63,287 bases of DNA, taken from a virus. Shown one piece after another: positions 35,512 to 58,723 of the stretch. Location: positions 1 through 63,287 of the IMG/VR virus record IMGVR_UViG_3300042868_006184. One strand, 5' to 3'. Below the pieces are notes generated by a model, which was not told the origin of the DNA, ran no database searches, and worked only from the letters and a program-made list of their open reading frames with translations. The position numbers and the translations under genes are program-made. Positions within the stretch are counted from its first letter, which is position 1. Each line of letters begins with the position of its first letter.

Positions 35512-36372
35512 ATGGCTGAAACAAAAGAAAATATACCCGAAATAAAGCAAAGAGAGGCTGGTATGACCTTGTGTGTAGGTGCGCAGGGTGTTGGTAAAAC
35601 TTACTTACACATGTACGTTATTCGTGACTATGTTAGAGATAAGATAGAAAGCAAGGTTAAAGGTAGAAAGTGTTTAATATTTGACACTAATGGCGAGTTC
35701 ACACAAAAGCAGTTTGAGGAGAATGGAATACCTAATTTCCCTATACAAACGATAAAGATGCGAGATATTGAAGCATGGGGATTAAGCAATAGAGTAGAAT
35801 GTCGTAGAGTAGATGCAAAAGCATTAAGCATAGACGAAAAGATAAAATGTGTAAGTTATATCATTAACAAATATCGTGATGGTATGTTGGTATTAGAGGA
35901 TATAAATACCTATATTTTAAGTGTTACTCACATGGGCGATATTATTAGTGGTCTTGTAAATTTACGTCATAGAGGGGTGGATATTCTTATTTCATACCAA
36001 GATTTTAGAGCAGTAGAGCCTAGAATATTTTCAAATAGTAGATGGTTTAGATTTCACTATCAATCTGTTGACGTAATGGAGGTTAAAGCAAAGATACCTA
36101 ACGTAGAGTTATGTTCTATTGCTCAAATAATTGTCAATAACAAGTATTTTAACGATGACATACGATTCTATCTATATGTTTATAAGAACATAAATAAGGT
36201 ACGAGGTAAGTTCTCAAAGGATGAATTTTATGTAGCCTGTAAAGAGTATCTTAATGGTTCAAGAAGTCTGATTAAGACATTGATGAATCGTAAGAAAATT
36301 AGTGAAGAAGAGGCAATAAAATTTCAAAGTGATTTATACTATAAGATGTATTATGGTAACGACAACAAATAA
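35512..36372 (+). CDS. FtsK/HerA-type packaging ATPase
   Basis: 286-aa P-loop ATPase. Walker A is GAQGVGKT (residues 23-30). Walker B is LVLED (126-130). A downstream RHRGVDILISYQDFRAVEPRI segment (152-172) matches the sensor/arginine region of HerA/FtsK enzymes. Its small size and the absence of any large terminase point to the genome-packaging ATPases of the PRD1-adenovirus lineage (P9/A32-like), which pump DNA into preformed, membrane-lined capsids. A host-type DNA translocase would be larger, with an extra C-terminal domain. This is the strongest single marker for a tailless membrane-containing virus. Confidence 0.82.
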   Translation: MAETKENIPEIKQREAGMTLCVGAQGVGKTYLHMYVIRDYVRDKIESKVKGRKCLIFDTNGEFTQKQFEENGIPNFPIQTIKMRDIEAWGLSNRVECRRVDAKALSIDEKIKCVSYIINKYRDGMLVLEDINTYILSVTHMGDIISGLVNLRHRGVDILISYQDFRAVEPRIFSNSRWFRFHYQSVDVMEVKAKIPNVELCSIAQIIVNNKYFNDDIRFYLYVYKNINKVRGKFSKDEFYVACKEYLNGSRSLIKTLMNRKKISEEEAIKFQSDLYYKMYYGNDNK

Positions 36373-36381
36373 AATACTATA

Positions 36382-36765
36382 ATGATAACATATTTAAGAG
36401 AACAACATTTACATAATTTACAACTAAAGATTAACGATTTACGTCCAGAGTATAAAGGTAAAATTAGTGATGGCTACCATACGTTTGATGAATTGTACGA
36501 ACATAGAATTACACTATATATAGCACTATGCAAATCTTTAAGAATGGAAGAAGATATTTGGAAATCTAAACAACATTCAGATGGCAGTCGTATTGAGGGT
36601 TGGTTTATCTTAGGTATTAATAAAGAAGAAGGCAAACAAATTACTTATCATTTACCATTATCGAAATGGGATGAATGTAATTTTGCAACAACATTAGCAA
36701 CAGCACCTAGCTTTGATGGACATAATTCAAATGATGTTTTAGAACGATTAAAAAATTTATTATGA
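36382..36765 (+). CDS. WDGH-type conserved phage protein
   Basis: 127-aa protein with DGYHTFDELYEHRITLYIAL, a SKQHSDGS loop, GWFILGI and a C-terminal DGHNSNDVLERL, matching the small WDGH-motif phage proteins (here FDGH). The biochemical role of the family is not known to me. It overlaps the next gene by four bases. Confidence 0.78.
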   Translation: MITYLREQHLHNLQLKINDLRPEYKGKISDGYHTFDELYEHRITLYIALCKSLRMEEDIWKSKQHSDGSRIEGWFILGINKEEGKQITYHLPLSKWDECNFATTLATAPSFDGHNSNDVLERLKNLL

Positions 36766-37391
36766 CAAATCCACACGATATAACCAAAGCCTTTGAGCAA
36801 AGACTTAGCGACTATACAAACGCACCTTACGTTGTTTGCGTAGATAATCAAAGCAATGCTTTATTTTTAGCACTCACATACGTTGGAATTAAAGGCAAAG
36901 AAATTTCTATACCCTCACATACATACCCAAGTGTTCCTGCTGAAATAATACACGCTGGTGGTAAGGTTAAGTTTCTTAACTCTTCTCCTATCTTACAAGG
37001 TGAATATCAATTAGGCGATACAATAGTTTGGGATAGTGCATTACGTTTTACTGCTGATATGTACCAAAAAGGAATGATGCAATGTATATCGTTCACAGGT
37101 GCATACAAGCACTTAAAATTAGGTAAAGGTGGTGCAATACTAACTGACGATAAAAATGCCTATGAGTGGTTTAAAAAAGCAAGGTTTAGTGGACGTTCAG
37201 AATGTAGCTACCACGAAGATAATTTTGACGATAATCCTGTTTTAGGTTGGAACTTTTATATGCCTGTTGAAACCTCTGCAAGAGGATTACACATGATGCC
37301 ACAATTTTATACCCACGATGGACGAAAGAAACATAATTTAGATTTATCACTACCTTATCCAAATTTGAGTACCTTTGATATTTATAAATAA
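36762..37391 (+). CDS. Short DegT/DnrJ-type sugar aminotransferase
   Basis: Aminotransferase-like protein of the DegT/DnrJ/EryC1 family, which puts an amino group on nucleotide-linked keto-sugars using pyridoxal phosphate. The cofactor lysine is likely K116 in SFTGAYKHLKLGKGG, and D91 fits the ring-binding aspartate. At 209 aa it is little more than half the usual 350-400, lacking the C-terminal small domain, so it may be a minimal or degenerate enzyme. With the PglD-like acyltransferase at 61480 it suggests acylated amino-sugar synthesis. Confidence 0.78.
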   Translation: MTNPHDITKAFEQRLSDYTNAPYVVCVDNQSNALFLALTYVGIKGKEISIPSHTYPSVPAEIIHAGGKVKFLNSSPILQGEYQLGDTIVWDSALRFTADMYQKGMMQCISFTGAYKHLKLGKGGAILTDDKNAYEWFKKARFSGRSECSYHEDNFDDNPVLGWNFYMPVETSARGLHMMPQFYTHDGRKKHNLDLSLPYPNLSTFDIYK

Positions 37392-37396
37392 TTATT

Positions 37397-38620
37397 ATGA
37401 AGTCAAAGTATGCTATTTACGATGAAGAAATTAAGCGAATATTTTTATCGAATCCAAATTTTGATACAGAATACACAAAGGTTGCCCAATTAATATTAAA
37501 AACTAAACAAACAGCACCTCAAAATGCTGATGTAAACGCTTTAAAAGTATATGTTCGTAGGAATAAAAAACGTATCTTAGATTTAAACGAGGGTATTTAT
37601 AATGCTACTGATGAATTAGATGTTGCCTTCACCTCTGCAAAGAATCTATGGATAAAAACAAAACGTAAGGATGGTGGTGTAAGTGGCTTTATTGTTAATC
37701 CTAACTATGTAGCACCAGAAGAAAAGCAAATTAAAGATATTGACTTTGAAAGTATTTTTAATGGCAAAATAAAGCCAATAGAAGTAATATCAAATTGCAT
37801 AAATGAGGGGTTGTTTGATAGATTAGTATATACCGATGTGCATATAGGTATGAATGTAAATCCAGATGGATATAGCCTTTATGGTGGTAAGTGGGATGAG
37901 CATGAGATAGAAGAAAGGCTGACAATGATAGTTAGTCATGTAGTTAATAATAAAAAGTCTGAAACACTATATATTGATGAGTTAGGGGACTTTATGGATG
38001 GTTGGGATGCACAAACTGTAAGGAAAGGACATGAGTTACCACAAAATATGGATAATCAAAAAGCCTATGATGTAGGTGTTAGCTTTAAGATTAGAATGAT
38101 TGACGAGTTGGTAAAACACTATAAGAATATCATTTGCAATAATATCTGTAATGATAATCATGCTGGTGCATTTGGATATGTGGTCAATAGTGCATTTAAG
38201 ACTATTATCGAATTGAAGTATAGCAATGTGAAGGTAAATAATTTGCGTAAATTTATTAACCATTATTCTTTTGGTAATTATACTTTTATTCTTACTCATG
38301 GAAAGGATGCCAAGAATTTAAAGTTTGGTTTCAAAGCAAAATTAGATATTGTTGCTATGGAGAAAATTGATAATTACATCAAAGAACATTATCTTTACAA
38401 GGAGAATGTAGTTATTGAATTTAGCAAAGGAGATAGCCATCAATATGTGTTTGATAATAGTACAAGTCAAACATATAGCTATTGTAGTTATCCTGCATTA
38501 AGTCCAAGTAGTGAATGGGTGCAGACTAATTTTAAAAAGGGTATAAGTGGTTTTGTGTTCTTTAATTTTTACGAGGATAGAAAGGTGTTACAAGAGTATT
38601 TTTTCAAGTGGAAAAACTAA
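37397..38620 (+). CDS. Calcineurin-type metallophosphoesterase
   Basis: 407-aa protein. The N-terminal 140 residues are a helical DNA-binding-like region. The C-terminal domain has the metallophosphoesterase ligand set: YTDVHIG (DxH), GDFMDGWD (GDxxD), CNDNHAG (the N-H motif) and LTHGKD (the GH motif). It may act on nucleic acid or a phosphorylated small molecule. Proteins of this layout occur in phages of this host group. Confidence 0.8.
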   Translation: MKSKYAIYDEEIKRIFLSNPNFDTEYTKVAQLILKTKQTAPQNADVNALKVYVRRNKKRILDLNEGIYNATDELDVAFTSAKNLWIKTKRKDGGVSGFIVNPNYVAPEEKQIKDIDFESIFNGKIKPIEVISNCINEGLFDRLVYTDVHIGMNVNPDGYSLYGGKWDEHEIEERLTMIVSHVVNNKKSETLYIDELGDFMDGWDAQTVRKGHELPQNMDNQKAYDVGVSFKIRMIDELVKHYKNIICNNICNDNHAGAFGYVVNSAFKTIIELKYSNVKVNNLRKFINHYSFGNYTFILTHGKDAKNLKFGFKAKLDIVAMEKIDNYIKEHYLYKENVVIEFSKGDSHQYVFDNSTSQTYSYCSYPALSPSSEWVQTNFKKGISGFVFFNFYEDRKVLQEYFFKWKN

Positions 38621-38661
38621 AAAATGCTTACATTTACAATTAATAAAAAAGAAATAAGTAT

Positions 38662-39273
38662 ATGTATAATTTACCAGCACTTCCTTATGAATATTCAGCA
38701 TTAGAGCCATATATTGATGCTAAAACTATGTTTATTCACTACAACAAACACTTTAAAACCTATTTAGATAACCTAAACGCTAAGTTAAGTGAAGAAAACA
38801 TACAACAACAAAGCATTGAAAATCTTATTAAAAACATATCTTTTTATTCAGAAGATGTAAGAAATAATGGTGGTGGTTATTATAATCATCTTTTATTTTG
38901 GAAAATGCTAATGCCTTTTGATGAAATGGATATAAACAAGCCTCCAACATTAGTAGAGAATATAATTAAAAGAGATTTTGGTAGCCTAGCTAATTTTAAA
39001 AAACAGATTGTGGCACAAGCAAAAAAAAGGTTTGGGTCGGGTTGGATATGGTGGATTATTTTACCTTCTGGAAAAACCGAAATAGTCAATACGGCAAATC
39101 AAGATAACCCTCAAATGTTTTATTCGTGTACAATCCTTCTTGGTATTGATGTATGGGAACACGCTTATTATTTAAAATATCAATCCGAAAGGGTAAAGTA
39201 TGTGGAAAACATTTTTAATGTAATTAATTGGAACTATCCTTATAAAATATTAAATAAATATTATAAAAAGTAG
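38662..39273 (+). CDS. sod: Fe/Mn superoxide dismutase
   Basis: 203-aa enzyme that converts superoxide to oxygen and hydrogen peroxide. All four metal ligands are present: H26, H76, D163 (GIDVWEHAYY) and H167. The GSGW and NQDNP signatures are intact. The Gln in the NQDNP position and the NNGGG segment favour a manganese or cambialistic type. No signal peptide, so cytoplasmic or virion-borne. A viral superoxide dismutase is unusual and may protect the cell or virion during infection. Confidence 0.93.
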   Translation: MYNLPALPYEYSALEPYIDAKTMFIHYNKHFKTYLDNLNAKLSEENIQQQSIENLIKNISFYSEDVRNNGGGYYNHLLFWKMLMPFDEMDINKPPTLVENIIKRDFGSLANFKKQIVAQAKKRFGSGWIWWIILPSGKTEIVNTANQDNPQMFYSCTILLGIDVWEHAYYLKYQSERVKYVENIFNVINWNYPYKILNKYYKK

Positions 39274-39317
39274 GCTATTGAAATTTTTGATTCACTAACC
39301 AATAAAAACTAATAAAT

Positions 39318-39521: not shown

Positions 39522-39527
39522 ACAAAC

Positions 39528-40301: not shown

Positions 40302-40348
40302 ATATAAAAATCTCGCCAAGCAATAAATAGTTATAAGAGAATTTTTAA

Positions 40349-40379
40349 GCCATCTAGCGTAAGTTAGGTGGCTTTTTTT
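40349..40379 (+). terminator. Rho-independent terminator before the late region
   Basis: 8-bp stem GCCATCTA (40349-40356) / TAGGTGGC (40365-40372) with one G-T pair, an 8-base loop and a T7 run. It separates the middle operon from the virion genes. Confidence 0.85.
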
Positions 40380-40515: not shown

Positions 40516-40653
40516 ATGAAATTATTCTCAAAAGAAAATGGAATCGCATTTGTTGTTACACTTACTGCCGTAATGGTAGGTTTAGCTGTACACCAAGTAT
40601 ATGTTGCACCAATGCTCGTTAAAAAAGCATCTGCAACTCCAGTAGGAAAATAA
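40516..40653 (+). CDS. Small virion-type membrane protein, 45 aa
   Basis: First gene of the late module. Short basic start, one membrane segment (about 10-27, IAFVVTLTAVMVGLAV), then a Lys/Ala/Pro tail. Its place directly before the capsid gene suggests a small membrane component of the virion. The 159 bases up to the capsid gene hold no convincing gene. Confidence 0.7.
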   Translation: MKLFSKENGIAFVVTLTAVMVGLAVHQVYVAPMLVKKASATPVGK

Positions 40654-40812: not shown

Positions 40813-41553
40813 ATGAATAACAAAGAAAAAGAATTGCATGATGCAATTGCTCGTACAGAGAGATTCTCTGGCTACGATGGTTACGATAGTTATGAGAGTG
40901 CAGAAGGCGATATGGGAATGTTCGATTCGGACGATTTCAATAACTTCGATGCTGACTACTCTAACGCAGGTGGAAACAAAGCACAAGAAACATCTGACCC
41001 TTATATCTTACAGTATGTTAACTCAACTACTGCTGACGTAACGGCTATTTTATTTGGTGCGAATGATTACGCACAATCTACTAACTTTGGTAATCCTACT
41101 GCCGTAACAATTACTTCTCTTCAAGGAGGTACTTATGGTCGTATGTTGAACCAGTCTAGCACTAAGGCATTTAAAATTGGTGAGTTCAGATTTATTTCTT
41201 CTACTGCATCTCAATTGAGCCAAACTTTAACCCAAAACATCGTTGATGCGAATGGTTTAGTTGCTCAAAAACCATTGAACATGGCTGTGTTAAAAGACAT
41301 CTACCAATATTCAACAGATACTATTGTAGTGAAAAAAGTTGTTACTATTGATGGTAATACTTTCTTTACTTTCCCATTGAAAGCATCTGCTACTTTGGTA
41401 ATTGCAATGTATCCTACTCAAATCGTTTCTGCTCGTAGACGTCTTAATGGCGGTCCGTCTATTGGAAGCGTAAGAGTACCTAGAATTGATGGACAAAACA
41501 CTTCTCCAGTGATTATCCAAACAAATCAAGGTGTTAGAGGTATTAACGGATAG
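40813..41553 (+). CDS. Major capsid protein candidate, 246 aa
   Basis: The acidic, Tyr/Asp-rich first 50 residues end in DADYSNAGG (46-54). A beta-rich domain follows (about 62-215) with LFGANDYAQSTNFGNP, KAFKIGEFRF and DGNTFFTFPLKASATLVIAMYPTQ, strand-turn patterns expected for a jelly-roll coat protein. It has its own long leader and a strong terminator directly after, a layout typical of the most abundant virion protein. It is unlike HK97-fold capsids, which usually have scaffold and protease neighbours. Cutting after the GG would leave a mature protein of about 192 residues. The identity is inferred from context and fold pattern. Confidence 0.65.
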   Translation: MNNKEKELHDAIARTERFSGYDGYDSYESAEGDMGMFDSDDFNNFDADYSNAGGNKAQETSDPYILQYVNSTTADVTAILFGANDYAQSTNFGNPTAVTITSLQGGTYGRMLNQSSTKAFKIGEFRFISSTASQLSQTLTQNIVDANGLVAQKPLNMAVLKDIYQYSTDTIVVKKVVTIDGNTFFTFPLKASATLVIAMYPTQIVSARRRLNGGPSIGSVRVPRIDGQNTSPVIIQTNQGVRGING

Positions 41554-41589
41554 TATTCTTTAAGAATCTGTCACAATCACAACTATTAG

Positions 41590-41621
41590 GGGCAAAGGTT
41601 CACGCCTTTGCCCTTTTTTTT
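41590..41621 (+). terminator. Strong terminator after the capsid candidate
   Basis: Perfect 9-bp stem GGGCAAAGG (41590-41598) / CCTTTGCCC (41605-41613), 6-base loop and T8 tail. It would make the capsid transcript discrete, with read-through feeding the membrane-protein genes. Confidence 0.95.
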
Positions 41622-42129: not shown

Positions 42130-42606
42130 ATGATAGAAACCGAATTGATTGAAGATGCCGTAGTATTGATTCCTAACAAGGAACATCAAAATTTTACTGA
42201 AACAGATGAGGTTATTAGTGCAGGAACAAAAATAAGTGGTGATGCCAAAATAGTTAAGGGATTAAGAAGAGGTAAGCCTTATGATTATAGGTTATTTGTA
42301 ACGGACGATAATAAAATAATTTTTTTAAATAAAACCAAAATCAAAACAAATATGGAAACTAGAGAAGTAACATTAGGAGTAGGAGGAGAAAAATCAATTG
42401 TGGTAAATAACACACTACCAAAAACTTTAGGTAGACCTATCGTATTAGGTGCTATTGGTGGTGCATTGGCAGGATATGCTTATTGTAAATACAAAAACCA
42501 TGACATGAAAACAACGGGTATTTATACTCTTGTTGGTGGTGCTATTGGTTATGTAGCTGGTTATCTTTACGAAAACAAAGGACTTTCAATTAAAATCAAT
42601 AAATAA
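42130..42606 (+). CDS. Two-span membrane protein, 158 aa
   Basis: The first 90 residues are soluble and beta-like. Two glycine-rich membrane segments (about 100-117 and 129-147) follow, with a short basic tail. It lacks the DYSNA motif. Probably a structural protein of the virion membrane. Confidence 0.7.
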   Translation: MIETELIEDAVVLIPNKEHQNFTETDEVISAGTKISGDAKIVKGLRRGKPYDYRLFVTDDNKIIFLNKTKIKTNMETREVTLGVGGEKSIVVNNTLPKTLGRPIVLGAIGGALAGYAYCKYKNHDMKTTGIYTLVGGAIGYVAGYLYENKGLSIKINK

Positions 42607-45622: not shown

Positions 45623-46144
45623 ATGGCAGTCGAAAAAGGTCAAAAATATTATAGGGTAAAAGAGAAATTTAGTTGCCCAAAGGTTGTTGCGACACAAAAT
45701 CCAAATAACCCTATGCAGATAAGTAGCTATATGTTTAAACAAGGTCAAGTTATTACAGGTAAAATGATATTTGTAGATGGCAAACCTAGTTTCTTATTTG
45801 TTAATGGAATGTATCATGTACCTTTGAGTAAGATTCAAGAGATTCAATTAAAAAACATTGATGGTGTAAGTGGCAAAGTAAGTAACGCTACTGGTGACCC
45901 TATAAATGGCAATGCACCAGCAGGAACTGTTAAGAAAATTGAAATTAAAGATAATCCTAATGCAAAGTATTTAGATGCTATTGTTATTGGTGCGGTTATT
46001 GGTTTTGGAGTAACTTATTTTGCTGAAAAGAAGGGATGGTTGCCAGAAGACCAACCGAATAACAGATATTATGGCATGGGTATAGGTGCTATTGCTCTTA
46101 CATATTTGGCTTATAGATTAAAAACTAAAAACGTAGTAAAATAA
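45623..46144 (+). CDS. Membrane protein, 173 aa
   Basis: Beta-rich soluble N-terminal part (1-110), then two membrane segments (about 115-131 and 150-166) separated by a polar loop. Basic C-terminus. No DYSNA motif. Begins two bases after the previous gene. Confidence 0.7.
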   Translation: MAVEKGQKYYRVKEKFSCPKVVATQNPNNPMQISSYMFKQGQVITGKMIFVDGKPSFLFVNGMYHVPLSKIQEIQLKNIDGVSGKVSNATGDPINGNAPAGTVKKIEIKDNPNAKYLDAIVIGAVIGFGVTYFAEKKGWLPEDQPNNRYYGMGIGAIALTYLAYRLKTKNVVK

Positions 46145-46620: not shown

Positions 46621-47025
46621 ATGATTGATGTAATAAATTCAATACCCGTTCAGTCTAGTCAGTCTGCTGATTGGATTCAATGGCACAAAGCATTAAAAAG
46701 TCGCTTTGGTAAATTAGAGGCAAACCAATTGTTTTTAAAGGCATGGGGATTTAGAGGAACATCAAAATCTAATACTGGTGAATTACGTTCATACATGAAA
46801 GATAATGGAGTTACTTTAGATACTAATGTGTTTGGCAAAGCAAAGGATATTCAAAATAGCGTTTTTGATACGATTGGTGGGGTATTAAAGGTTAGTACGG
46901 CAGTTACAACAGGTATCATGGTATTAGGTATTGTTGGTATAGGCTATATTATTTACAAAGTTGTTTCTCCTTCTGATAATCTTACAAGGGTTGTTGTTGC
47001 TGGAACATCATTAAAAAAAATGTAA
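46621..47025 (+). CDS. Virion-type membrane protein, 134 aa
   Basis: The N-terminal soluble domain (about 13-65) has WIQWHKALKSRFGKLEANQLFLKAWGFRG, a compact helical unit followed by STxELRSYM-like helices. A membrane segment is at about 93-115. No DYSNA motif. Probably a virion component; role unknown. Confidence 0.7.
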   Translation: MIDVINSIPVQSSQSADWIQWHKALKSRFGKLEANQLFLKAWGFRGTSKSNTGELRSYMKDNGVTLDTNVFGKAKDIQNSVFDTIGGVLKVSTAVTTGIMVLGIVGIGYIIYKVVSPSDNLTRVVVAGTSLKKM

Positions 47026-47029: not shown

Positions 47030-47461
47030 ATGAAACTAACAACAAACGAAAAAATAATTTATGGTGTAGGTCTTGGCTTAGTTGCTTTGACTGTCTATAT
47101 AGTTATCAATAGAAAAAGAAAGGCAAAAGAAATTAAAGCAATCAATGACATCTTAGATAGCAAGGTGGCTGACCCTAATAAGGATGGTGGTCAAGTAATT
47201 ATACAAAAAAGCGTTTATGATAAATTGCCAGATGGTAAGTTTCCTTTAAAATTCAAAGATATATCAAAAAAAGTATATGATTTACAAAAAGCATTAAATG
47301 TAAAATATAATTTATCAATAGACCAAGATGGTAAATTTGGACAATCTACTGCTTCTGCTTTATGTAAACATTATTTTGGCAGTTGCTTTACCGATGTTCA
47401 AAGTAGATTGTACGAGATAACCAATAACCAATTAACTGAAATTAAAGCTAGAAATAACTAA
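47030..47461 (+). CDS. Membrane-anchored peptidoglycan-binding-like protein
   Basis: N-terminal membrane segment (about 8-26), basic stop-transfer, linker, then a domain with DLQKALNVKYNLSIDQDGKFGQSTASAL (about 83-110) that fits the PG_binding_1 pattern (LQxxL ... DGxFGxxT). It could hold the virion membrane to the cell wall during entry. Its stop overlaps the start of the protease gene. Confidence 0.75.
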   Translation: MKLTTNEKIIYGVGLGLVALTVYIVINRKRKAKEIKAINDILDSKVADPNKDGGQVIIQKSVYDKLPDGKFPLKFKDISKKVYDLQKALNVKYNLSIDQDGKFGQSTASALCKHYFGSCFTDVQSRLYEITNNQLTEIKARNN

Positions 47462-48243
47462 TGGTACAACATCTTTGGCAATCAAATAACGAAACGGCTA
47501 CTATCTTTATTACCATTAAAACTAATGGCAAAAAGAAGTTATGCGTGTTTGCAGAAGATTTACAGAAGAAGAATAGCTATTATGCTAATAGAGAGGTTAT
47601 TGTTGATGGAACAAGAACTATATTCATGTCGTTTCCAATAACTCCTAAGAACGTAACTATTGGTGCTATAAACATGGCTGATTTTAATGACAAAGATATT
47701 CAAATGAGTTTTGATATTCAACCATTAAAACAATACGCTACATGGATGGATGAGCAAACTAGAGAATTTGTTGAGTTGGCTTTACCTTTTTGTCAAATAA
47801 GTGGATTTATCAATCCAAGTCCTAATGGCACTCTTTATACTTCTAAGCAAGGCAATATCAATATTAAGTATTTTCCTGTAATAAAGGACAAAGGAAAGCC
47901 TATAAGCACACCAGCGAGAATAGGACACAATACAGGTACTATGGAGGTTGCAAAATATTGTTTTGATAAATATACAATTCCTATGAGATTTATGATTTTA
48001 TGTCACGAATTTTCGCATAAATATCGTAATCCAAAAATGAATTTAGATATTTCTAATGAGTTTGGTGCAGACTTAAATGGCTTGTATATCTACTTAGGTA
48101 TGGGTTTTAGTAAGATAGATGCTATTTGTGTGTTTGCTAATGTTTTTTTGAAAGCACAAACTGACCAAAATATTTATCGAATGAGGAAAATAAATGAGTA
48201 TATTTCACGCTTTGAAAGGCAAGAGTATGCTAAGTTGGTTTAA
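47461..48243 (+). CDS. Zinc metalloprotease (HEFSH) of the virion module
   Basis: 260-aa protein. H182, E183 and H186 form the HExxH zinc site in CHEFSH. E200 in NEFGAD is the probable third ligand, a gluzincin-like arrangement. The N-terminal half is beta-rich. No signal peptide or membrane segment. It lies in the middle of the virion membrane-protein genes, so it is a good candidate for a maturation protease or an entry enzyme. The family is not one I can name. Confidence 0.78.
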   Translation: MVQHLWQSNNETATIFITIKTNGKKKLCVFAEDLQKKNSYYANREVIVDGTRTIFMSFPITPKNVTIGAINMADFNDKDIQMSFDIQPLKQYATWMDEQTREFVELALPFCQISGFINPSPNGTLYTSKQGNINIKYFPVIKDKGKPISTPARIGHNTGTMEVAKYCFDKYTIPMRFMILCHEFSHKYRNPKMNLDISNEFGADLNGLYIYLGMGFSKIDAICVFANVFLKAQTDQNIYRMRKINEYISRFERQEYAKLV

Positions 48244-48259: not shown

Positions 48260-49222
48260 ATGATGGAAGTGAATGTAGGGAGTGAAGATATGAAAATACT
48301 ATACGACTTCGTAAATGAGAAGCCTAAAAAAAAGGTGGAAAATTACGACTTAGACGTATTCGACAATAGGAGGTCAGATTATGCACCTGCCCGTTATGAG
48401 GAGGATGAATGGCTTGGGAAACAAAAGGAGGAGAAGCCAGAATTTCTTGTCGATGATTTCGATTTTTCCGATATAAAGGGAGATTTGAAAGGTTCTTTGA
48501 AAAAAATTAAGAAGCGTAGAGCATTAAAAAACTTCGGAGTTAAGAAAAGTGCTACCATTGTTGCCAAAGAGGGTGTTATAAGAACGACTAACAAGATAAT
48601 TATTCCTAAAGATAGAAAGATAATCATTGAGGGAGTAGAGAATTTCATTACACAAGCAGACGAAAAATATAAGCAAATAGGTTACTATAAGGGCAATAAA
48701 CTAAAAGAGTTAATATTAATATTCAATAACGATTCTACTTTAGATTTTACTGTTGACTTATTTAGTCCTAGCTTTATAAACGACTACATGGTAAGTAATA
48801 CTGGCGATATTAACAACAAAATTGATGTTGAGGGTAGGAGTGTAACTTATAGAGATTTGGTTGCTTATATGTGTGGTGGAAATAGCACTTATATCCATAA
48901 TGGACGATTTGTTTTTGAAGGTTCAAACATATCAAATCAAGCGTCACAGCCATTGACTTTTAACAATAGAAATATAGAAGGAGATGCCAATATTCACCCT
49001 ATTAATCCAAGACAATTTATTGATATATACCAATACCAAAGTAACATTGTTTTAATTGACATTGATAGTGCATTGAATAGACCTTTTATACCAGATGGAT
49101 TGGATTCTTTACAATATAAGGTTTTGGCAGGTATGACCGTTACTTTCTGTTTTTATTTTGAAATCATTAAGTTGAAAGAGTTTTTTTATAACGAAGCAAG
49201 AAAAAGTAAAATTTTATTATAA
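48260..49222 (+). CDS. Probable minor virion protein, 320 aa
   Basis: Acidic, disordered first 70 residues, a basic patch (about 77-95), then a beta-rich domain to the end. No motif recognised. It overlaps the start of a spike-like gene by one base. Probably a vertex or penton-base-like structural protein, from position and fold pattern only. Confidence 0.65.
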   Translation: MMEVNVGSEDMKILYDFVNEKPKKKVENYDLDVFDNRRSDYAPARYEEDEWLGKQKEEKPEFLVDDFDFSDIKGDLKGSLKKIKKRRALKNFGVKKSATIVAKEGVIRTTNKIIIPKDRKIIIEGVENFITQADEKYKQIGYYKGNKLKELILIFNNDSTLDFTVDLFSPSFINDYMVSNTGDINNKIDVEGRSVTYRDLVAYMCGGNSTYIHNGRFVFEGSNISNQASQPLTFNNRNIEGDANIHPINPRQFIDIYQYQSNIVLIDIDSALNRPFIPDGLDSLQYKVLAGMTVTFCFYFEIIKLKEFFYNEARKSKILL

Positions 49223-50034
49223 TGCCAGAATTATTTTCAACAAAATACGCAAACAATAGTAGGACGATTAGTGGTACTTCAAACGTCATAAACAAAGATG
49301 ATACTATATTGCTTTGTGATACAACAAGTGGTGCAGTAGCGGTTACTATTGGTGAGATACCAAACGGATTTTGGGACACTAACTACAAATTGTATATAAG
49401 TGATTATTCTAACAATGCTGGAACGAATAACATAACTATAAATGCACCAAGTGGTTTTACTATTAACAATGCAAGTTCTTTGGTTATATCGACAAATGGT
49501 GGCTCTGTTTTAATACAAATTGCGTCAAGTACGGCTTATGTAGGTAATTTAAACTATTGTTGCAATACCAAGCAGATAAGTTTTTATGAGGCTAATGCTA
49601 TTTTGACCGATATTATATTGCCTATTGATAACAATAAGAACAATTTATTAGCTAGTCTTTTGCTTACCATTACAGGTGAAACAAGCACATTGGGTGAGCG
49701 TTACATAATAAACACTAACTTAAATAGATTTCGTTTTACAATAAGTCCTACGGCAAATAATGGAACTATGTATTTAGTGTCAATTGTAACAAACGAACTT
49801 GATGTGGTGCAAGAAACAAATAGACAAGCAATACTTATTTTCAATGGCTACGCTTCTTCTGGTAACAATAATTCATTGATGTTGAATTGGATGCCAGTAA
49901 CTCCATTGAAGGTGGGGTGGAAAATAAAAACATATATCAATGTTGCTAGTATAGGCAATGATGTTGAGGTTAAATTTGAAAATACTTCAACTGCATTTAG
50001 TCAATGCTACGCAACAAGAACAAAACTTTTATAG
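49222..50034 (+). CDS. Spike-like protein A, 270 aa
   Basis: The N-terminal 105 residues (KYANNSRTISG, NKDDTILLCDTTSGAVAVTIG, SSLVISTNGGSVLIQ) form a beta-rich domain sharing its pattern with the proteins at 54249 and 54973. The distinct C-terminal part (about 120-270) looks like a small jelly roll. Likely a receptor-binding or vertex protein, with the common N-domain as the attachment part. Confidence 0.68.
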   Translation: MPELFSTKYANNSRTISGTSNVINKDDTILLCDTTSGAVAVTIGEIPNGFWDTNYKLYISDYSNNAGTNNITINAPSGFTINNASSLVISTNGGSVLIQIASSTAYVGNLNYCCNTKQISFYEANAILTDIILPIDNNKNNLLASLLLTITGETSTLGERYIINTNLNRFRFTISPTANNGTMYLVSIVTNELDVVQETNRQAILIFNGYASSGNNNSLMLNWMPVTPLKVGWKIKTYINVASIGNDVEVKFENTSTAFSQCYATRTKLL

Positions 50035-50307: not shown

Positions 50308-50817
50308 ATGACACCACAAACAAAAAAAGTCGTGGTAATAACTATATCCCTGCTTTCATTAGCGGGGTTAAGTTATTTTGCTTACACTTACTTTAAAAAG
50401 AAAAAAGAAGAGGATGTTTTACCAACACCTTCAGATACTATACCAACACCAACAACAACAACAACAAGTGGTACTACAAATACTCTACCACCAATTAATG
50501 TAGAAAATGCTACAAGTGGATTAAAACCTTTAAGTAATGCAGAGATAGTTGGGGCAACTAAAGGATTCCAAAATTGGATGGATGCTTTCAATCCAAATTG
50601 GTTAGTTGGACGTAGTGATAAAAAGCAAAATTTGAATAAAGATATATCTTTAGGCTATGGAAAATTTGGTTCACAGACTAAAAAAGCTATTTCTAATTTA
50701 TCAAATGCAAAAGGATTTGCTAGTTATCTATTAAAAAATGGATACAATGTTAATAGTTTAAAAAGAATTGCTATGTGGTTAAGTACACAAGGTGTTAATT
50801 TCCCAATGGCAGTATAA
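50308..50817 (+). CDS. Membrane-anchored wall-binding-like protein, 169 aa
   Basis: N-terminal membrane segment (about 8-28), Thr/Pro-rich linker (about 35-65), then a C-terminal domain with GYGKFGSQTKKAIS, resembling the core of peptidoglycan-binding repeats. Precedes the lytic enzymes by a few bases. Probably helps dock the virion or lysin at the wall. Confidence 0.7.
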   Translation: MTPQTKKVVVITISLLSLAGLSYFAYTYFKKKKEEDVLPTPSDTIPTPTTTTTSGTTNTLPPINVENATSGLKPLSNAEIVGATKGFQNWMDAFNPNWLVGRSDKKQNLNKDISLGYGKFGSQTKKAISNLSNAKGFASYLLKNGYNVNSLKRIAMWLSTQGVNFPMAV

Positions 50818-50827
50818 AAAAAATAAA

Positions 50828-51391
50828 ATGACTAGAGAAGAGTTTAAGAGATTAGTTCCAAGTAACCCATCGTTGGCAGATAGATATTATCAGCCTATTA
50901 AAGATACTATGAATAAATTTAATATTGACACTCCTTTACGACAAAGTCATTTTGTTGCACAATTACTACATGAAACGGGCAATTTGCAATATAACCAAGA
51001 AATTGCTAGTGGTAAAGCATACGAGGGTAGAAAAGACTTAGGCAATACAAGTGTTGGTGATGGAGTAAAATACAAGGGAAGAGGCTTGTTTCAACTTACA
51101 GGCAAAGCAAATTATAAAGCCTTTGGTGATTATATTGGAGTTGACTTGTTAAAGAATCCAGAGTTGGTTGCTAATGACCCAAAAATAAGTTCATTGGTAG
51201 CAGGATGGTTTTGGAATGCAAAAGGATTGAATAGAAAGGCAGACAATGATGATGTTCTTTCTGTAACTAAAAGTATTAATGGAGGCTTAAATGGATTAGC
51301 AGATAGGGTTAATAAATTAAAAAATGCCAAAGCCGTTATTACTGAACCTTATTATTTGGACTTAGGATTTATGAAGATTAAATTAAACTAA
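50828..51391 (+). CDS. GH19 chitinase/lysozyme-like enzyme, copy 1
   Basis: 187-aa glycoside hydrolase family 19 enzyme, cleaving peptidoglycan glycan strands. Catalytic Glu is E49 in LLHETGN, followed by the conserved EGRKDLGNT, GDGVKYKGRGLFQLTG and NY segments. The ATG at 50828 is preferred over an upstream in-frame start that overlaps the previous gene. No membrane segment, so this copy may act as the soluble endolysin. A related copy lies at 52035. Confidence 0.92.
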   Translation: MTREEFKRLVPSNPSLADRYYQPIKDTMNKFNIDTPLRQSHFVAQLLHETGNLQYNQEIASGKAYEGRKDLGNTSVGDGVKYKGRGLFQLTGKANYKAFGDYIGVDLLKNPELVANDPKISSLVAGWFWNAKGLNRKADNDDVLSVTKSINGGLNGLADRVNKLKNAKAVITEPYYLDLGFMKIKLN

Positions 51392-51394: not shown

Positions 51395-52024
51395 ATGAAA
51401 AGCACAATAGATTGGATATACGATAAAAAATGGTGGTTTTTAGGTGGTGTCGTATTAATCGGAGGTGTTTTAATTTATGTAAATAGAGATAAAGAAAAAG
51501 CTATGGCAAAAGAATTATTTGGAGGGCAAAAATGGTTTGACGAAAGTCTTAAATGGTATCGTGATAATAACACGAAAGGTATCGTGAGTAAACTTCATCC
51601 TCAATTTAGAGAAAAAGTAAAAGAGTTCTTTTCAAGAGTAGAAAAAGAGTTAGGTTTACAAATGTACGCAACAAGTGGTTATAGGACTTTTGAAGAACAA
51701 GCGATTTTAAAACGTAATAATAAGAATAATGCAGAGGCAGGATTTTCAGACCATAACTATGGTTTTGCTATTGACGTGAATGTTATTGACCCTAAAACAG
51801 GCAAAATAATCCTAAAGAAGGCAAATACTTCAAAAGATTGGGAAAATTCTGGAGTAGTTAAAATTGCAAAAGAAATGGGATTTAAGTGGGGAGGTGGAGG
51901 TGCTTTTGGTTCGTATCATGACCCTGTTCATTTTTATGAGAATCCAAAAGGTCTAAGTACAGCAAGTATGAGGGAATTACATAATTCGGGAAAAATTGAT
52001 AGCAATGGCTATGTTATAGTTTAA
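51395..52024 (+). CDS. Membrane-anchored M15-type peptidase
   Basis: 209-aa protein. N-terminal membrane segment (about 13-29), then a VanY/M15 D,D- or L,D-peptidase domain. Ligands are H120 and D127 in SDHNYGFAIDV and H179 in DPVHF, with TSGYRT upstream. It cuts peptide stems of peptidoglycan. The anchor suggests a virion-membrane enzyme for entry, or an inner-membrane-bound lysin. Confidence 0.9.
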   Translation: MKSTIDWIYDKKWWFLGGVVLIGGVLIYVNRDKEKAMAKELFGGQKWFDESLKWYRDNNTKGIVSKLHPQFREKVKEFFSRVEKELGLQMYATSGYRTFEEQAILKRNNKNNAEAGFSDHNYGFAIDVNVIDPKTGKIILKKANTSKDWENSGVVKIAKEMGFKWGGGGAFGSYHDPVHFYENPKGLSTASMRELHNSGKIDSNGYVIV

Positions 52025-53363: not shown

Positions 53364-53873
53364 ATGGAGTTAAGCAATAAAAATATAGCAATTGGCTTAG
53401 GTATTATTGGTGCTGGTGTTGGTGCTTTTTTGTACTATCAATACTTGCAACTTATGAAATACGTTATTAAGGTAAAAGGCATAAGTGTAAGAAGGTTAGG
53501 CTTAAAAGACATAAACTTTGATATATTTCTTAATTTTAGAAACGAATCAGATGTCAAGATAGATATTATTGAGCAAAAGCATAAAGTATATATAAACGAT
53601 ATAGAAATATCAAATATTCTAAATTACAATACCAATATTATTCAACCTAATTCAACGTCTGTAATAGGCTTTAATGTATCTATTGACCCTACAAAGATAT
53701 TGAACATCTTAAAGGTTAATTATATGGAGTTATTGGCAGACCCTAACAAAGTTACTTTATTGATTGATATGAATTTTAAAGTTAGGTTATATTTCTTTAA
53801 TGTAAACATCAATTATGGTTATACGATTGGCTTAAAAGATTTGATTGAACTAGCAAAAAAACCTAAACAATAA
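53364..53873 (+). CDS. LEA2-like membrane-anchored protein, 169 aa
   Basis: N-terminal membrane segment (about 8-27), then a beta-sandwich domain with INFDIFLNFRNESDVKIDI and SVIGFNVSIDP, resembling LEA type 2 domains. Such domains occur in several Bacteroidota phages with no known role. It may form a periplasm-facing or capsid-lumen structural part. Confidence 0.72.
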   Translation: MELSNKNIAIGLGIIGAGVGAFLYYQYLQLMKYVIKVKGISVRRLGLKDINFDIFLNFRNESDVKIDIIEQKHKVYINDIEISNILNYNTNIIQPNSTSVIGFNVSIDPTKILNILKVNYMELLADPNKVTLLIDMNFKVRLYFFNVNINYGYTIGLKDLIELAKKPKQ

Positions 53874-54236: not shown

Positions 54237-54248
54237 AAAAAACAAAAC

Positions 54249-54968
54249 ATGAACACTACAACAACATTAAATACAAAATACATTGGTGGATTCGGAATAA
54301 TCTATTTAGTTGATTGCAAAGACGATATAATTAACGTAGATACCTCGCAAGGTGCTTGTACAATTATTTTGCCTAATATAATTCAGAATGGATTAAATTC
54401 TATACCTAAGTCATTTTTTATTAATGATATAACAAATAAAGCTGAGACAAGTAATATTACAATTCTTCCAACACCAACTGACGTAGTTAATTCAGCTACC
54501 TCGTTTGTAATATCTAACAATGGTGGTACTGTAATTTGTAGTCCATCTTCTGCTAATGAATGGTTTATAAATTCTGCAATACCTACTGGAATGATTAGTG
54601 CATTTAGTAATGGATGGATTGATTATAGTTCTATATCTACTGTAACTGGTTGGGCTGCTTTACCTGCTCCTACAAAACAAATATTTTATAAAATTATTGA
54701 CAACAATAAGACATTACTTATCAATTTTGCAATTGGTGGCACATCAAATAGTGCAACAACAAATTTTACTTTACCTGCAACTCCTTTAGCTGGTATTACA
54801 GGTCGAGATTTAATTACTTGTGTAAATGCTGGACTTAATACCGTTGGTAGATTTGCTTATAGTTCTGCATCAAACATAATATCTTTTGTTCAAGATAATA
54901 GTGGTACACCATTTACTGCGGCAGGTACTAAACAAATCTATGGAACTATCATAATACCTATCGGATAA
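54249..54968 (+). CDS. Spike-like protein B, 239 aa
   Basis: The N-terminal 105 residues (NTKYIGG, DDIINVDTSQGACTIILPNIIQNGL, SFVISNNGGTV) closely match those of the next protein and, more loosely, the one at 49222. The C-terminal domain is beta-rich and Thr/Ser/Asn-rich, like fibre tips. Probably a receptor-binding protein using a common base. Confidence 0.74.
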   Translation: MNTTTTLNTKYIGGFGIIYLVDCKDDIINVDTSQGACTIILPNIIQNGLNSIPKSFFINDITNKAETSNITILPTPTDVVNSATSFVISNNGGTVICSPSSANEWFINSAIPTGMISAFSNGWIDYSSISTVTGWAALPAPTKQIFYKIIDNNKTLLINFAIGGTSNSATTNFTLPATPLAGITGRDLITCVNAGLNTVGRFAYSSASNIISFVQDNSGTPFTAAGTKQIYGTIIIPIG

Positions 54969-54972
54969 CTAA

Positions 54973-57189
54973 ATGCTATCTACGAATCCACATAATACTA
55001 AGTATCTAAGTGGCACTCAAACATATAATTTGAATTGCCAAGATGACGTATTAAATGTAGATACTTCTAGTGGATTAATTACTATCGTTTTACCAAACAT
55101 TATAAATAATGGTTTAGATTCTATTCCAAAGAGATTCTATGTTAATGATGTTGGTGGCTATGCTAGTGTCAATGGCATAACAATAGTATGTTTACAAGGA
55201 AATAGCGTTAATGGTAGTACGTCACTTATTTTATCGACAAACGATATAAGTGCAGAGTTGTTTCAATCTTCAAATACGGAATGGTTTGTTAGCAAGTCAA
55301 GTAGTGGTGGTGGTGGTGGAACAACTATAACCGTTGTTGCCAATTATAGTGCTTTGCCTAGTCCATCAACTGCAATGGGTCAATTCTATTGGTGTAGTGC
55401 ATCACAAGGCACTAAATGGCTTCCTTATTCATTAGGTGGTACATACTATCCTTTAGGACTTTATTACTCAAATGGTGTAACGTGGGAGTTCTTAGAAGTT
55501 CCTTATCAAAGTACACAAGCACAAGTAGATGCTGGAACAAACACAGATACTTTTGTAACTCCTAATACCTTTTCAAATGCAAGTAAATGGCTTACAAAAG
55601 AGGATATAGCAAATAAGTCTAGTTCATATACTCTTAGTTCTACGACTACCTATGCAAATACAAAAGCATTGGTGGATGGATTAGCTACAAAGCAAAATAT
55701 AATTACTCCACAACCATTTTCTAAGACAGATGACGTAAATGTAACCGCAACGCTTGGTGGTTCTTTTGCTACTGCTTTACTTAACGCAATGTCAATTACG
55801 CTTGGATGGACAGGCATACTTTCTATTGCTAGAGGTGGAACGGGATTAGGTTCTTTAGGTTCTGCATTACAATCCATTAGGGTAAATTCTTTAGCAACTG
55901 GATTAGAATATTTCACTCCTGCAAATACTTCTCCTCTTACAACTAAGGGTGATTTATATACATACGACACAACGAATACAAGATTGCCCGTAGGACTTGA
56001 CACGCAAGTTTTGTTGGCAGATAGTTCGACAACAACAGGATTAAAATGGGGAACAAATAGTGCTTCCACTCCTTTAGGTTATTATGGTGCTTGGCAAGAT
56101 GATATTACACAAACTGCTTTAGCAAATAACACAGGTTATCCAATGAAGTTTAGGATAGCAGATATTCCTCCTAACGGCATATCTATTGTTAGTGATAGTC
56201 AAATAACTTTTGCAAATACTGGCATATATAATATTCAATTTAGTTCACAATTTCAAAATTTAGATAATAGTCCGCAAGACGTTACTATTTGGTTAAGGTT
56301 AAATGGAGTAGATGTTGTTGGAAGTGCTGGTAATATAGGCTTAGAGGCAAGAAAAAACATAACAGACCCTTATCATACTATTGCATCATGGAATTATTTA
56401 TTAAGTGTAGTGGCAGGACAATATTATGAATTAGTTTGGAGTACAACAGATTATGTAAACGTAACTATGCCTTTTTATCCAGCAGGTTCTCCTCCTCCTT
56501 CATGTGCATCGGTTATATTAACTGTTACTCAACAAAGTGGTATAATGGCTGGTACGGGAATAACATCTATTAATTCACTAACGGGAGCAACACAAACAAT
56601 GGTAGCAGGAACAAGTGGAACGGACTTTGTTGTTAGTTCTCTTGGCACTACTCATACATTTAATTTACCTACCGCATCGGCTACTAATAGAGGTGCTTTA
56701 TCTACTACCGATTGGAGTGCATTTAATGGCAAGTTAGGTACTACCTTGGCAACAGGTAAAATATTCTTAGGTGTTGGTGGTGTCGCTACTGCTTCATCGA
56801 ATCCAAGAGCAATTTTAAATACAATGCTTGGCACATCTGTAGTTTTATCTACTACTATTTATTTTCTTCCTGCTTCTACTGGTGCTGGTAGTACTACTAG
56901 TGAAAGCGCAAGGACTTATTACTTAACCAATGATTGTACTTTAGGTAGATTATTAGTGGCTACTGCGGGTACGCAAAGTAGTACAGGTTCAGCTGTTCTA
57001 ACTATTAGACATAATGGTGTATCAAGTGGTATTTCAATAACTATTGCAGCAGGGTCAGCAATAGGTACTTTTACTGATTATGTAAATACAAGAACTTGTG
57101 CAGTAGGAGATGGTATTTCAATTCAAATAGTCAATAATGCAACAACAAATAGTGCTAACTTTAGACAAATAACTTTTAACATATTCTAA
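54973..57189 (+). CDS. Long spike/fibre protein C, 738 aa
   Basis: The N-terminal domain is shared with protein B (NTKYLSG, DDVLNVDTSSGLITIVLPNIINNGL), then a Gly run at about 113-117. A phage-fibre-like repeat region (ARGGTGLGSLG, SPLTTKGDLYTYD, LPVGLDTQVLLADSST) spans about 285-360. Next is a C1q/TNF-like jelly roll (about 370-525), a further fibre repeat (ATNRGALSTTDW) and a C-terminal beta domain. Such fibres bind host receptors. It is the longest virion protein here. Confidence 0.82.
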   Translation: MLSTNPHNTKYLSGTQTYNLNCQDDVLNVDTSSGLITIVLPNIINNGLDSIPKRFYVNDVGGYASVNGITIVCLQGNSVNGSTSLILSTNDISAELFQSSNTEWFVSKSSSGGGGGTTITVVANYSALPSPSTAMGQFYWCSASQGTKWLPYSLGGTYYPLGLYYSNGVTWEFLEVPYQSTQAQVDAGTNTDTFVTPNTFSNASKWLTKEDIANKSSSYTLSSTTTYANTKALVDGLATKQNIITPQPFSKTDDVNVTATLGGSFATALLNAMSITLGWTGILSIARGGTGLGSLGSALQSIRVNSLATGLEYFTPANTSPLTTKGDLYTYDTTNTRLPVGLDTQVLLADSSTTTGLKWGTNSASTPLGYYGAWQDDITQTALANNTGYPMKFRIADIPPNGISIVSDSQITFANTGIYNIQFSSQFQNLDNSPQDVTIWLRLNGVDVVGSAGNIGLEARKNITDPYHTIASWNYLLSVVAGQYYELVWSTTDYVNVTMPFYPAGSPPPSCASVILTVTQQSGIMAGTGITSINSLTGATQTMVAGTSGTDFVVSSLGTTHTFNLPTASATNRGALSTTDWSAFNGKLGTTLATGKIFLGVGGVATASSNPRAILNTMLGTSVVLSTTIYFLPASTGAGSTTSESARTYYLTNDCTLGRLLVATAGTQSSTGSAVLTIRHNGVSSGISITIAAGSAIGTFTDYVNTRTCAVGDGISIQIVNNATTNSANFRQITFNIF

Positions 57190-57416
57190 TGACATACAAA
57201 TATTATTCAAGTCAAGATGGTATATACCACATGGAAATTGAAATAGAAAGTGGTTCTATTGGTATGTGCTTAGACCCTAATGATAGCGAACATTCTCAAA
57301 TTATAAATGCTATTGGTACAAGTGAAGAAAAGGCATTAAAATACGCTACTTATTTATCCAATGGAGGATGCAATTACTTTGATTTAACTGAAATTCTAAA
57401 AACTATAAACACATGA
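57189..57416 (+). CDS. Hypothetical protein, 75 aa
   Basis: Small soluble acidic protein. Starts one base into the fibre stop region and its TGA overlaps the ATG of the next gene, so translation is probably coupled. No motif. Confidence 0.7.
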   Translation: MTYKYYSSQDGIYHMEIEIESGSIGMCLDPNDSEHSQIINAIGTSEEKALKYATYLSNGGCNYFDLTEILKTINT

Positions 57417-57970
57417 ACATTACGAGATTATTTATCTACTTGGTTCTAGCATTTATGCTATCATTAATTTATTCATGTAGCACTACAAAGCAATGTGAAA
57501 GAAACGTCAAAAAGGCTATTGCTTGTGGACTTATTAAGGATTCTATATCTTATAGGGTAACGACAAAAGATTCTTTGGTATTTATCAAAGGTGACAATAT
57601 AGAAACTCACGACACGTTGACAAAGTATGTTGAATGTCCAGATGGTAAGAAACCTATATTTCATGCTCATACATCTACTACGAGAAAAAATAATTCTACG
57701 TCTACTACAACTATTGATACTAATGGCAAAATAACTATTGAATGTGATTGTGCTGATTCTATATTGAAATTTCAAGCAATAATTACAGAAAAGGATAGAT
57801 TTATTTCAACAATTAACACTATAAATACAAAGCAATTAACACATTGGCAACGCTTTAAGAAGGATTTTAAATTATTTCTGTCATCTTTTGTTTTAGGGAT
57901 GTTATTCATGTTTCTACTGCCTTATATTTACAAGCTAACTAAACCACTAATAAAAACACTTTTTGTCTAA
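57413..57970 (+). CDS. Lipoprotein with C-terminal membrane segment, 185 aa
   Basis: The N-terminus is a lipoprotein signal (hydrophobic 6-20, lipobox LIYSC with Cys22). It is followed by a Ser/Thr-rich middle and a C-terminal membrane segment (about 160-176). A lipid anchor at one end and a membrane span at the other is what a single-protein spanin linking outer and inner membranes would need. It is followed by two holin-like genes, supporting a lysis role. Confidence 0.72.
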   Translation: MNITRLFIYLVLAFMLSLIYSCSTTKQCERNVKKAIACGLIKDSISYRVTTKDSLVFIKGDNIETHDTLTKYVECPDGKKPIFHAHTSTTRKNNSTSTTTIDTNGKITIECDCADSILKFQAIITEKDRFISTINTINTKQLTHWQRFKKDFKLFLSSFVLGMLFMFLLPYIYKLTKPLIKTLFV

Positions 57971-57987
57971 AAATAACACACGAAACT

Positions 57988-58353
57988 ATGGAATTGAACG
58001 TAAGACCTATATCTGATTCACTAATTGCCTTTATAAGCAAATATTCATCAATAATAATTTTGTCGATTGTGGTAGCAGTAGTAGAGATGTACTATGCAAT
58101 AAAGAATGATGAAACATTGTCTTATACCTATGTGATTATGTTAGGTATGGCGAGTATATTTGTTGGTGTAGGTATTGGTTATTCGATAGGTCATAATTAT
58201 GGCTTAAACGCAGGATTATACGCTTGTGCTATTACTACTTATTGTGGTAAGGAGTTTATCATTTTAATGATTCAGAAAAGAACGGAGATTGTAGATAAAA
58301 TTGTAAGTTATATTCAAAAATTAGTAACTAAAAAAACTAAAATAAATGACTAA
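57988..58353 (+). CDS. Multi-span membrane protein, holin-like, 121 aa
   Basis: Three hydrophobic segments (about 20-36, 48-68 and 74-93) and a Lys-rich C-terminal tail. Size and topology fit a holin, which makes membrane holes for lysins. Its end overlaps the next gene by eight bases. Confidence 0.62.
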   Translation: MELNVRPISDSLIAFISKYSSIIILSIVVAVVEMYYAIKNDETLSYTYVIMLGMASIFVGVGIGYSIGHNYGLNAGLYACAITTYCGKEFIILMIQKRTEIVDKIVSYIQKLVTKKTKIND

Positions 58354-58723
58354 CCTAACAAAGAAAAAATTTAGCAAATCTTTATATGTAACTGGTATTA
58401 TCTTAGCTTGTTTGTCTTCTTTTGTGGTAAGCAATGGAGTTCCTTTTCTACATGGTCAACAAGTCATTGTGTTAGGAGGTGTTATTGGCTTTTTTAGTGC
58501 TATCAATACGACATGGTATCAATACATAACAGAATCAATACCTAGAAAGGTAGCTATGTATTCTATTTTGATTGCGATAGTATCTTCTTTTGGTGCTTTG
58601 AATGAGTTTATATCTCTTATTCCATTAGACGAACCTACGAGCAAATCTTTGACGTGGCTTGTTTCTTTATTTGCTTTGATATTCCAAGTGTGGAGTAAGA
58701 TGAAGTATGTACCTAAAAAGTAG
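58346..58723 (+). CDS. Multi-span membrane protein, holin-like, 125 aa
   Basis: Four hydrophobic segments and basic ends (KKKFSK and KMKYVPKK). It overlaps the previous gene and ends the rightward genome. Probable holin or antiholin partner. TAG stop. Confidence 0.62.
   Translation: MTNLTKKKFSKSLYVTGIILACLSSFVVSNGVPFLHGQQVIVLGGVIGFFSAINTTWYQYITESIPRKVAMYSILIAIVSSFGALNEFISLIPLDEPTSKSLTWLVSLFALIFQVWSKMKYVPKK

Follow-up and report, generated by a model that had tools for sequence, protein, structure and literature searches.

Prokaryotic viruses with double-jelly-roll capsid proteins have some of the smallest double-stranded DNA (dsDNA) genomes, 7-18 kb (PMC5894146). Members of the Helvetiavirae are built from two single-jelly-roll capsid proteins (PMC10848233), and the sphaerolipoviruses have linear genomes with inverted terminal repeats (PMC12643093, PMC12642351). 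The Salisaeta phage SSIP-1, which is unclassified, is tailless and membrane-containing, with two types of major capsid protein (MCP), a T=49 capsid and a circular genome of 44 kb (43,788 bp) (PMC6356626, PMC6260650, PMC4958249). Here we analyse a complete IMG/VR virus record of 63,287 bp (IMGVR_UViG_3300042868_006184; hereafter the window), which is nearly an entire virus genome. An earlier sequence-only reading had proposed a tailless, membrane-containing virus of Bacteroidota. We give a probability of about 80% to a dsDNA virus of this phylum whose icosahedral particle has no tail and contains a membrane, a proposal strengthened by the ATPase, the jelly-roll capsid model, the lack of a terminase in 13 records and the relatives in Bacteroidia, and in which the virion, membrane, packaging and cleavage are predicted. 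In our best reading it belongs to a previously unrecognised large-genome lineage, several times the size of most viruses of this build described so far, whose novelty lies in size and sequence and not in architecture.

Candidate shell proteins, ATPase and protease

The capsid candidate of the sequence-only reading, a short beta-rich protein with its own terminator, stood up to analysis. Its gene (40813-41553) forms a separate transcription unit between terminator-like hairpins at 40347-40374 and 41588-41615. In the AlphaFold model, made from an alignment of 18 family members, residues 61-205 form an all-beta core of high confidence (pLDDT mostly 86-94), and the acidic N-terminal arm and the C-terminus are disordered. 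The strand order fits one jelly roll, a single barrel of about 145 residues. Among solved structures, the nearest Foldseek neighbours (E about 1e-3) were mainly viral single jelly rolls, namely those of coxsackievirus, hepatitis A virus, turnip yellow mosaic virus, satellite tobacco mosaic virus and satellite tobacco necrosis virus, and a search of BFVD returned picorna-like and nepovirus coats; no HK97 protein was among the fold matches listed. The model thus supports a single and not a double jelly roll, with the low TM-scores considered below as a caveat. With 246 aa and one barrel, the protein is not the double-jelly-roll MCP that characterizes the Tectiliviricetes. The leader of the capsid gene also encodes a 45-aa single-span protein with a VMVGLAVHQVYVAP core, and in all 11 relatives compared an orthologue of 33-41 aa precedes the capsid gene by 260-350 nt.

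A second candidate is the product of 48260-49222, which matches a capsid protein in phmmer at 2e-6 and aligns with candidate 1 in hhalign over 140 columns (probability 90.6%, E 1.3e-6). Since the two are paralogous, the shell looks like one made of two proteins, each a single jelly roll. The model of candidate 2 (pLDDT 47) was left out of the fold searches. Further paralogues occur elsewhere in the lineage, three in tandem in one genome (G766; L183: 6307-8612) and two more in another (G778; contig 103771-105062), and these are possibly additional shell proteins. In the integrated elements described below, the position of candidate 2 is occupied by a protein with a YNCE-like beta-propeller, possibly a surface tower (L154:2253-3824), whose homology to candidate 2 is weakly supported.

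The small FtsK/HerA-like ATPase noted earlier is encoded at 35512-36372 and carries a Walker A motif GAQGVGKT and a Walker B motif MLVLED. In Pfam it matches TrwB_AAD_bind (E 3e-4) and HerA DUF87 (E 1e-3), and profile searches extended the latter match to 13 of the 17 family members (best 3.6e-7). Its 286 aa leave no room for a terminase nuclease domain or for the transmembrane domain of a coupling protein. An ATPase of the FtsK-HerA type, as in the Helvetiavirae, is thus present, with packaging as its predicted role. In the ATPase tree three groups were resolved: the clade of the window, an integrated clade and a divergent clade including G766.

A short motif recurs in the candidate structural proteins. 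The structural blocks of 12 viruses contain 41 copies of the pattern [YFMW]S[NFYQ][AVS]xG, where shuffles gave an expectation of 0.8 (maximum 4 in 300); this count somewhat overstates the significance, as the pattern was picked after the sequences had been seen. The motif directly precedes the barrel in nearly all main capsid proteins, and many membrane proteins carry it close to the N-terminus or immediately ahead of the C-terminal transmembrane segment; the integrated elements lack this exact motif. In the same block, the 47461-48243 product belongs to a family that matches no Pfam family and has HExxH in 13 of 13 sequences, followed by E..AD in 12 and by E..CD in the most divergent. That the motif recurs in proteins of the shell and the membrane, encoded next to a conserved HExxH protein, suggests proteolytic maturation, in which this protein would be the protease and the motif its predicted cleavage site.

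Relatives and conserved gene order

Searches with single sequences were largely unproductive. Neither the capsid protein nor the ATPase yielded a usable relative in IMG/VR, phage records or plasmids, the ATPase giving marginal matches to coupling proteins among plasmids, and the capsid protein found no relative in GTDB genomes. A wider capsid search drawn from the phylum returned the already known genome only. When the GDYSNA motif was searched as a DNA pattern, none of the 51 matches proved related.

The ATPase search of 395 sampled Bacteroidia genomes detected homologues in seven, with two further matches near 1e-3. In six of the seven, a polyvalent methyltransferase/helicase protein is encoded nearby, with 35-37% identity over about 1,400 aa to its counterpart at 20470-26880 in the window. 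A capsid homologue is also encoded at the better-covered loci, along with an HExxH protein and small proteins anchored at the C-terminus; these elements can be summarized as a module of large polyvalent protein, ATPase, capsid, membrane proteins and protease. Two of them lie inside long chromosomal contigs, flanked by host genes on both sides: one of about 41 kb with a serine recombinase (G172) and one of about 45 kb near a tRNA-Arg (G006). No att repeats were found around either. In two integrated copies (G380, L157; G172, L154) variable cargo lies between the ATPase and capsid genes, including an AbiEii-like nucleotidyltransferase and genes that by eye look related to defence.

Profiles built from the Bacteroidia relatives were used to search IMG/VR, and 16 records of 22-146 kb with the ATPase were recovered, 14 of them also with the capsid protein. 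The conserved order is 34385, ATPase, tiny transmembrane protein, capsid, 41637, 42130, 42615, 43944, 45623, protease, 48260 and 49222. As this order is kept in independent records, chance is ruled out. Taken together, records of the lineage and integrated elements start at about 40 kb and reach at least 84 kb, or 146 kb if one record is genuine.

Structural block, proposed virion and rival explanations

About twenty small membrane proteins had been proposed for the interval. A strong transmembrane segment was predicted for 15 of its 36 genes, in nine of these at the C-terminus, and weaker hydrophobic stretches bring the count near twenty. The anchored lysins and spike proteins were likewise recovered, the former as GH19-type enzymes (50792, 52035) and an M15/VanY peptidase (51395). 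Every feature of the sequence-only reading thus lies at or close to the position given for it.

These features suggest the following virion. The shell would be built from the two homologous single-jelly-roll proteins, and about 15-20 small proteins, mostly C-terminally anchored, would be seated in an internal membrane. The HerA-family ATPase would pump the DNA in without a terminase or portal, and the HExxH protein would probably process shell and membrane proteins at [YFM]S[NFY]A|xG. The spike proteins may bind the host cell, and the membrane-anchored GH19 and M15 lysins may open the cell wall during entry or exit. The giant polyvalent proteins would probably be carried in the virion, protecting the DNA; a parallel is the giant methyltransferase protein of SSIP-1, annotated there as structural.

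Several points weigh against this proposal. The virion and its membrane are predictions from gene content. Neither capsid candidate, nor the ATPase, has sequence similarity to any solved tailless-virus protein, and hidden Markov model (HMM) and hhalign comparisons with SSIP-1 gave no capsid, ATPase or protease homology. The Foldseek TM-scores of candidate 1 are low (0.2-0.35, the tails being disordered), and carbohydrate-binding jelly rolls (CBM16) are among its fold neighbours; the model of candidate 2 is poor, with the same strand order as candidate 1. The recurrent motif could instead be an interaction signal, and the inverted repeats at the contig ends may partly stem from assembly.

A tailless virus without a lipid membrane, whose hydrophobic segments would serve in the envelope of the host during assembly, entry or lysis, is very unlikely. 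The transmembrane segments are indeed predictions, as is the lipid layer itself; however, at least 15 proteins of the structural block, mostly with a single span and several with the motif of the capsid protein, resemble the situation in known membrane-containing viruses.

A highly diverged tailed phage (Caudoviricetes), with HK97 capsid, portal and terminase beyond recognition and the 40813 product as a decoration or tail protein, is highly improbable. Cellulophaga phages and other tailed phages of flavobacteria do have genes that some non-structural genes of the window resemble, and there was a weak match to a PHROG named 'terminase large subunit' (phrog_2666). This match was dismissed as generic, the family being present in all 14 control genomes and absent from the siphovirus Nekkels. 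Scans of the window proteins (42 with PHROGs, about 50 with Pfam) were negative for terminase, portal, tape-measure and tail families, in agreement with the earlier reading, and Terminase_6N was unmatched in all 13 records searched. The window thus has no detected TerL, portal or HK97 MCP, the features by which Caudoviricetes are recognised; the sequence-only reading had itself pointed to a terminase or portal in profile searches, or an HK97 capsid model, as decisive against a tailless virus. Moreover, the ATPase lacks a nuclease domain and the capsid model is jelly-roll-like. Among the families listed for the G172 element (35 proteins; 25 of 38 families), terminase appeared solely as phrog_2666, no portal was present, and two tail-named matches look like lysin domains.

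The least probable explanation is an integrative or conjugative element, in which the ATPase would serve for coupling and a secretion channel would be formed by the lysins together with the membrane proteins. The weak TrwB_AAD_bind match would fit it, as would the chromosomal copies and the giant polyvalent proteins, which Iyer et al. reportedly described in 2017 as common in conjugative elements. Against it, the Pfam scans of the window, which left some small genes outside the block unscanned, detected no relaxase, VirB4/TraG-type ATPase or other type IV secretion system family, the 286-aa ATPase has no coupling-protein transmembrane domain, and IMG/VR classes the records as viral. The window also encodes spike proteins, lysins and a pair of paralogous candidate jelly-roll proteins, of which the 40813 product has a transcription unit to itself.

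Genome ends, other genes and comparison with known systems

Both end repeats of the window have inner borders that coincide with the start codons of the first genes. The left repeat holds a Bacteroidota-type promoter and leader, of which a third, diverged copy (85%) lies at 2353-2432. As 127 is a common k-mer length of metaSPAdes, the assembler has probably truncated a repeat of 127 nt or more. A distant genome (G770) ends in a 111-nt inverted repeat likewise bordered by a start codon, a feature thus common to two distant genomes; the 146-kb record (G778) has a 48-nt inverted repeat, and G766 instead a 228-bp direct repeat. For the window's clade, linear DNA bounded by inverted terminal repeats is more likely than not, the less likely alternative being a circular genome containing an inverted repeat. 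No viral DNA polymerase was recognised; the one family tested across records, the PRD1-type protein-primed PolB (PF03175), was matched in 0 of 13.

Of the giant proteins (Table 1), the product of 16614-20222 also has homologues in related elements. Those of 10056-16598 and 26956-30339 carry seven [YMKF][AES][DKNEQ]GG motifs each (e.g. KMADGGE, YADGGG), which resemble repeated GG-type processing sites. A tRNA-Gln (ttg) gene at 30356-30428 separates the giant-protein genes from the morphogenesis region. Between the ATPase and capsid genes lies an Fe/Mn superoxide dismutase gene (38662-39273), and a DegT/DnrJ aminotransferase-like gene at 36762-37391 encodes 209 aa, below full family length and possibly truncated.

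Table 1. Features of the window, with positions on the 63,287-bp record
Feature	Position	Strand	Remarks
Left terminal inverted repeat	1..130		127 nt perfect, 130 nt at 99%
Large polyvalent protein, 2180 aa	10056..16598	+	GNAT, DUF5824; repeated (M/F)(A/E)(D/K)GG motifs
Large polyvalent protein, 1202 aa	16614..20222	+	primase-like N-terminus, N6 methyltransferase C-terminus
Large polyvalent protein, 2136 aa	20470..26880	+	ParB-like, SNF2 helicase, zeta-toxin kinase; DarB-like
Large polyvalent protein, 1127 aa	26956..30339	+	RelA/SpoT domain
Conserved protein directly upstream of ATPase in viral records	34385..35470	+	gene order
FtsK/HerA-family ATPase, probable genome-packaging motor	35512..36372	+	286 aa, P-loop
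45-aa single-transmembrane protein in capsid leader	40516..40653	+	overlooked by earlier reader, below open reading frame cut-offs
Major capsid protein candidate 1	40813..41553	+	246 aa; acidic N-terminal arm, DYSNAGG motif, single jelly-roll core (residues 61-205)
Terminator-like hairpin of capsid transcription unit	41588..41615	+	hairpin prediction
Membrane protein, C-terminal transmembrane segment	41637..42125	+	conserved, adjoins capsid
Hydrophobic structural-block protein	42130..42606	+	conserved
Structural-block membrane protein, C-terminal transmembrane segment	42615..43940	+	motif near each end
Structural-block membrane protein, C-terminal transmembrane segment	43944..44570	+	YSNAGG motif
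Membrane protein, C-terminal transmembrane segment	44575..45273	+	YSNAKG motif
Membrane protein, C-terminal transmembrane segment	45280..45621	+	two YSN motifs
Membrane protein	45623..46144	+	conserved
Membrane protein, C-terminal transmembrane segment	46146..46616	+	YSN motif
Membrane protein	46621..47025	+	conserved
Peptidoglycan-binding protein, N-terminally anchored	47030..47461	+	Pfam scan
HExxH...E..AD metallopeptidase-like protein, candidate maturation protease	47461..48243	+	catalytic residues conserved
Capsid protein candidate 2	48260..49222	+	paralogue of 40813-41553
Spike-like protein	49222..50034	+	N-terminal attachment domain common to 54249 and 54973 products
Membrane protein, N-terminally anchored	50308..50817	+	
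GH19-type lysin	50792..51391	+	
M15/VanY peptidase, membrane-anchored	51395..52024	+	Pfam scan
GH19-type lysin, C-terminal transmembrane segment	52035..52673	+	
Membrane protein, C-terminal transmembrane segment	52679..53167	+	YSNAKG motif
Membrane protein, LEA_2-like domain	53364..53873	+	conserved
Spike-like protein	54249..54968	+	
Large spike/receptor-binding candidate	54973..57189	+	
Right terminal inverted repeat	63158..63287		partner of 1..130

Genomes of the named two-MCP families span about 16-30 kb, SSIP-1 being the single case at 44 kb. If viruses of Bacteroidota reach 40-84 kb or more, both free and integrated, then tailless jelly-roll viruses of bacteria can have large genomes, package long DNA without a portal, encode polyvalent proteins for host takeover and apparently mature by proteolysis. 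The capsid, ATPase and protease profiles provide a tool to search for overlooked tailless viruses now classed as 'unknown', and the integrated copies are a source from which virions could be induced. It is possible, if rather doubtful, that this is a lineage at the level of a realm or kingdom, comprising large tailless bacterial viruses (at least 84 and possibly 146 kb) whose single-jelly-roll shells were assembled independently, whose linear genomes end in long inverted repeats and encode no recognised viral DNA polymerase, and whose capsids mature through a protease; if true, it would be a bacterial counterpart of the genome expansion in eukaryotic nucleocytoviruses. No description of the lineage was found in the open PubMed Central literature, a coverage that excludes subscription journals and most preprints.

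Among known systems, the Cellulophaga siphoviruses (Nekkels, phi46:3, phi19:1) have the 37397 phosphoesterase in common with the window, as well as a few genes for lysins or methylases. However, in Nekkels a tape measure gene is present along with other structural genes, and the morphogenesis genes are unrelated to those of the window. The phosphoesterase relatives showed accessory genes in common with tailed phages and, of the structural block, only lysin and spike pieces. The Tectiviridae, Corticoviridae and Autolykiviridae, with which the sequence-only reading had compared the window, are tailless and membrane-containing and have an FtsK-HerA packaging ATPase, whereas their capsid protein is a double jelly roll and their genomes are of about 7-18 kb (PMC5894146). 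That comparison has to be corrected: a single jelly roll with a paralogue places the two-protein shells of P23-77, SH1 and SSIP-1 closest. The window is large, as had been stressed, although the contrast drawn with genomes of 10-18 kb overlooked SSIP-1 (44 kb) and the sphaerolipoviruses (about 30 kb), and of the two options left by that reading, an unusually large member or a separate lineage, the second is the better fit.

The Helvetiavirae, comprising Sphaerolipoviridae (SH1), Simuloviridae (SNJ1) and Thermus phage P23-77, have two single-jelly-roll capsid proteins, with barrels vertical to the capsid surface, an internal membrane and a packaging ATPase; the two such proteins, the membrane and the ATPase role are predicted for the virus proposed here. 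They differ in their smaller genomes, about 16-30 kb, and the two capsid proteins of the window are recognisable as paralogues. To our knowledge, neither polyvalent proteins nor a maturation protease are known in this group. Homology to its MCPs was not detected, the MCP profiles being unmatched in PDB sequences and single MCPs in phage records.

SSIP-1 is the nearest known virion to the present lineage, which is known here by its genes. As predicted for the lineage, it is tailless and membrane-containing, with two capsid protein types, many small structural proteins, an endolysin and a giant methyltransferase protein; its ATPase gp40 matches a different PHROG, and its circular 44-kb genome and T=49 capsid also set it apart. 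We conclude that the lineage appears to work like a virus of the Helvetiavirae or SSIP-1 type, while not being placed as a member of either.

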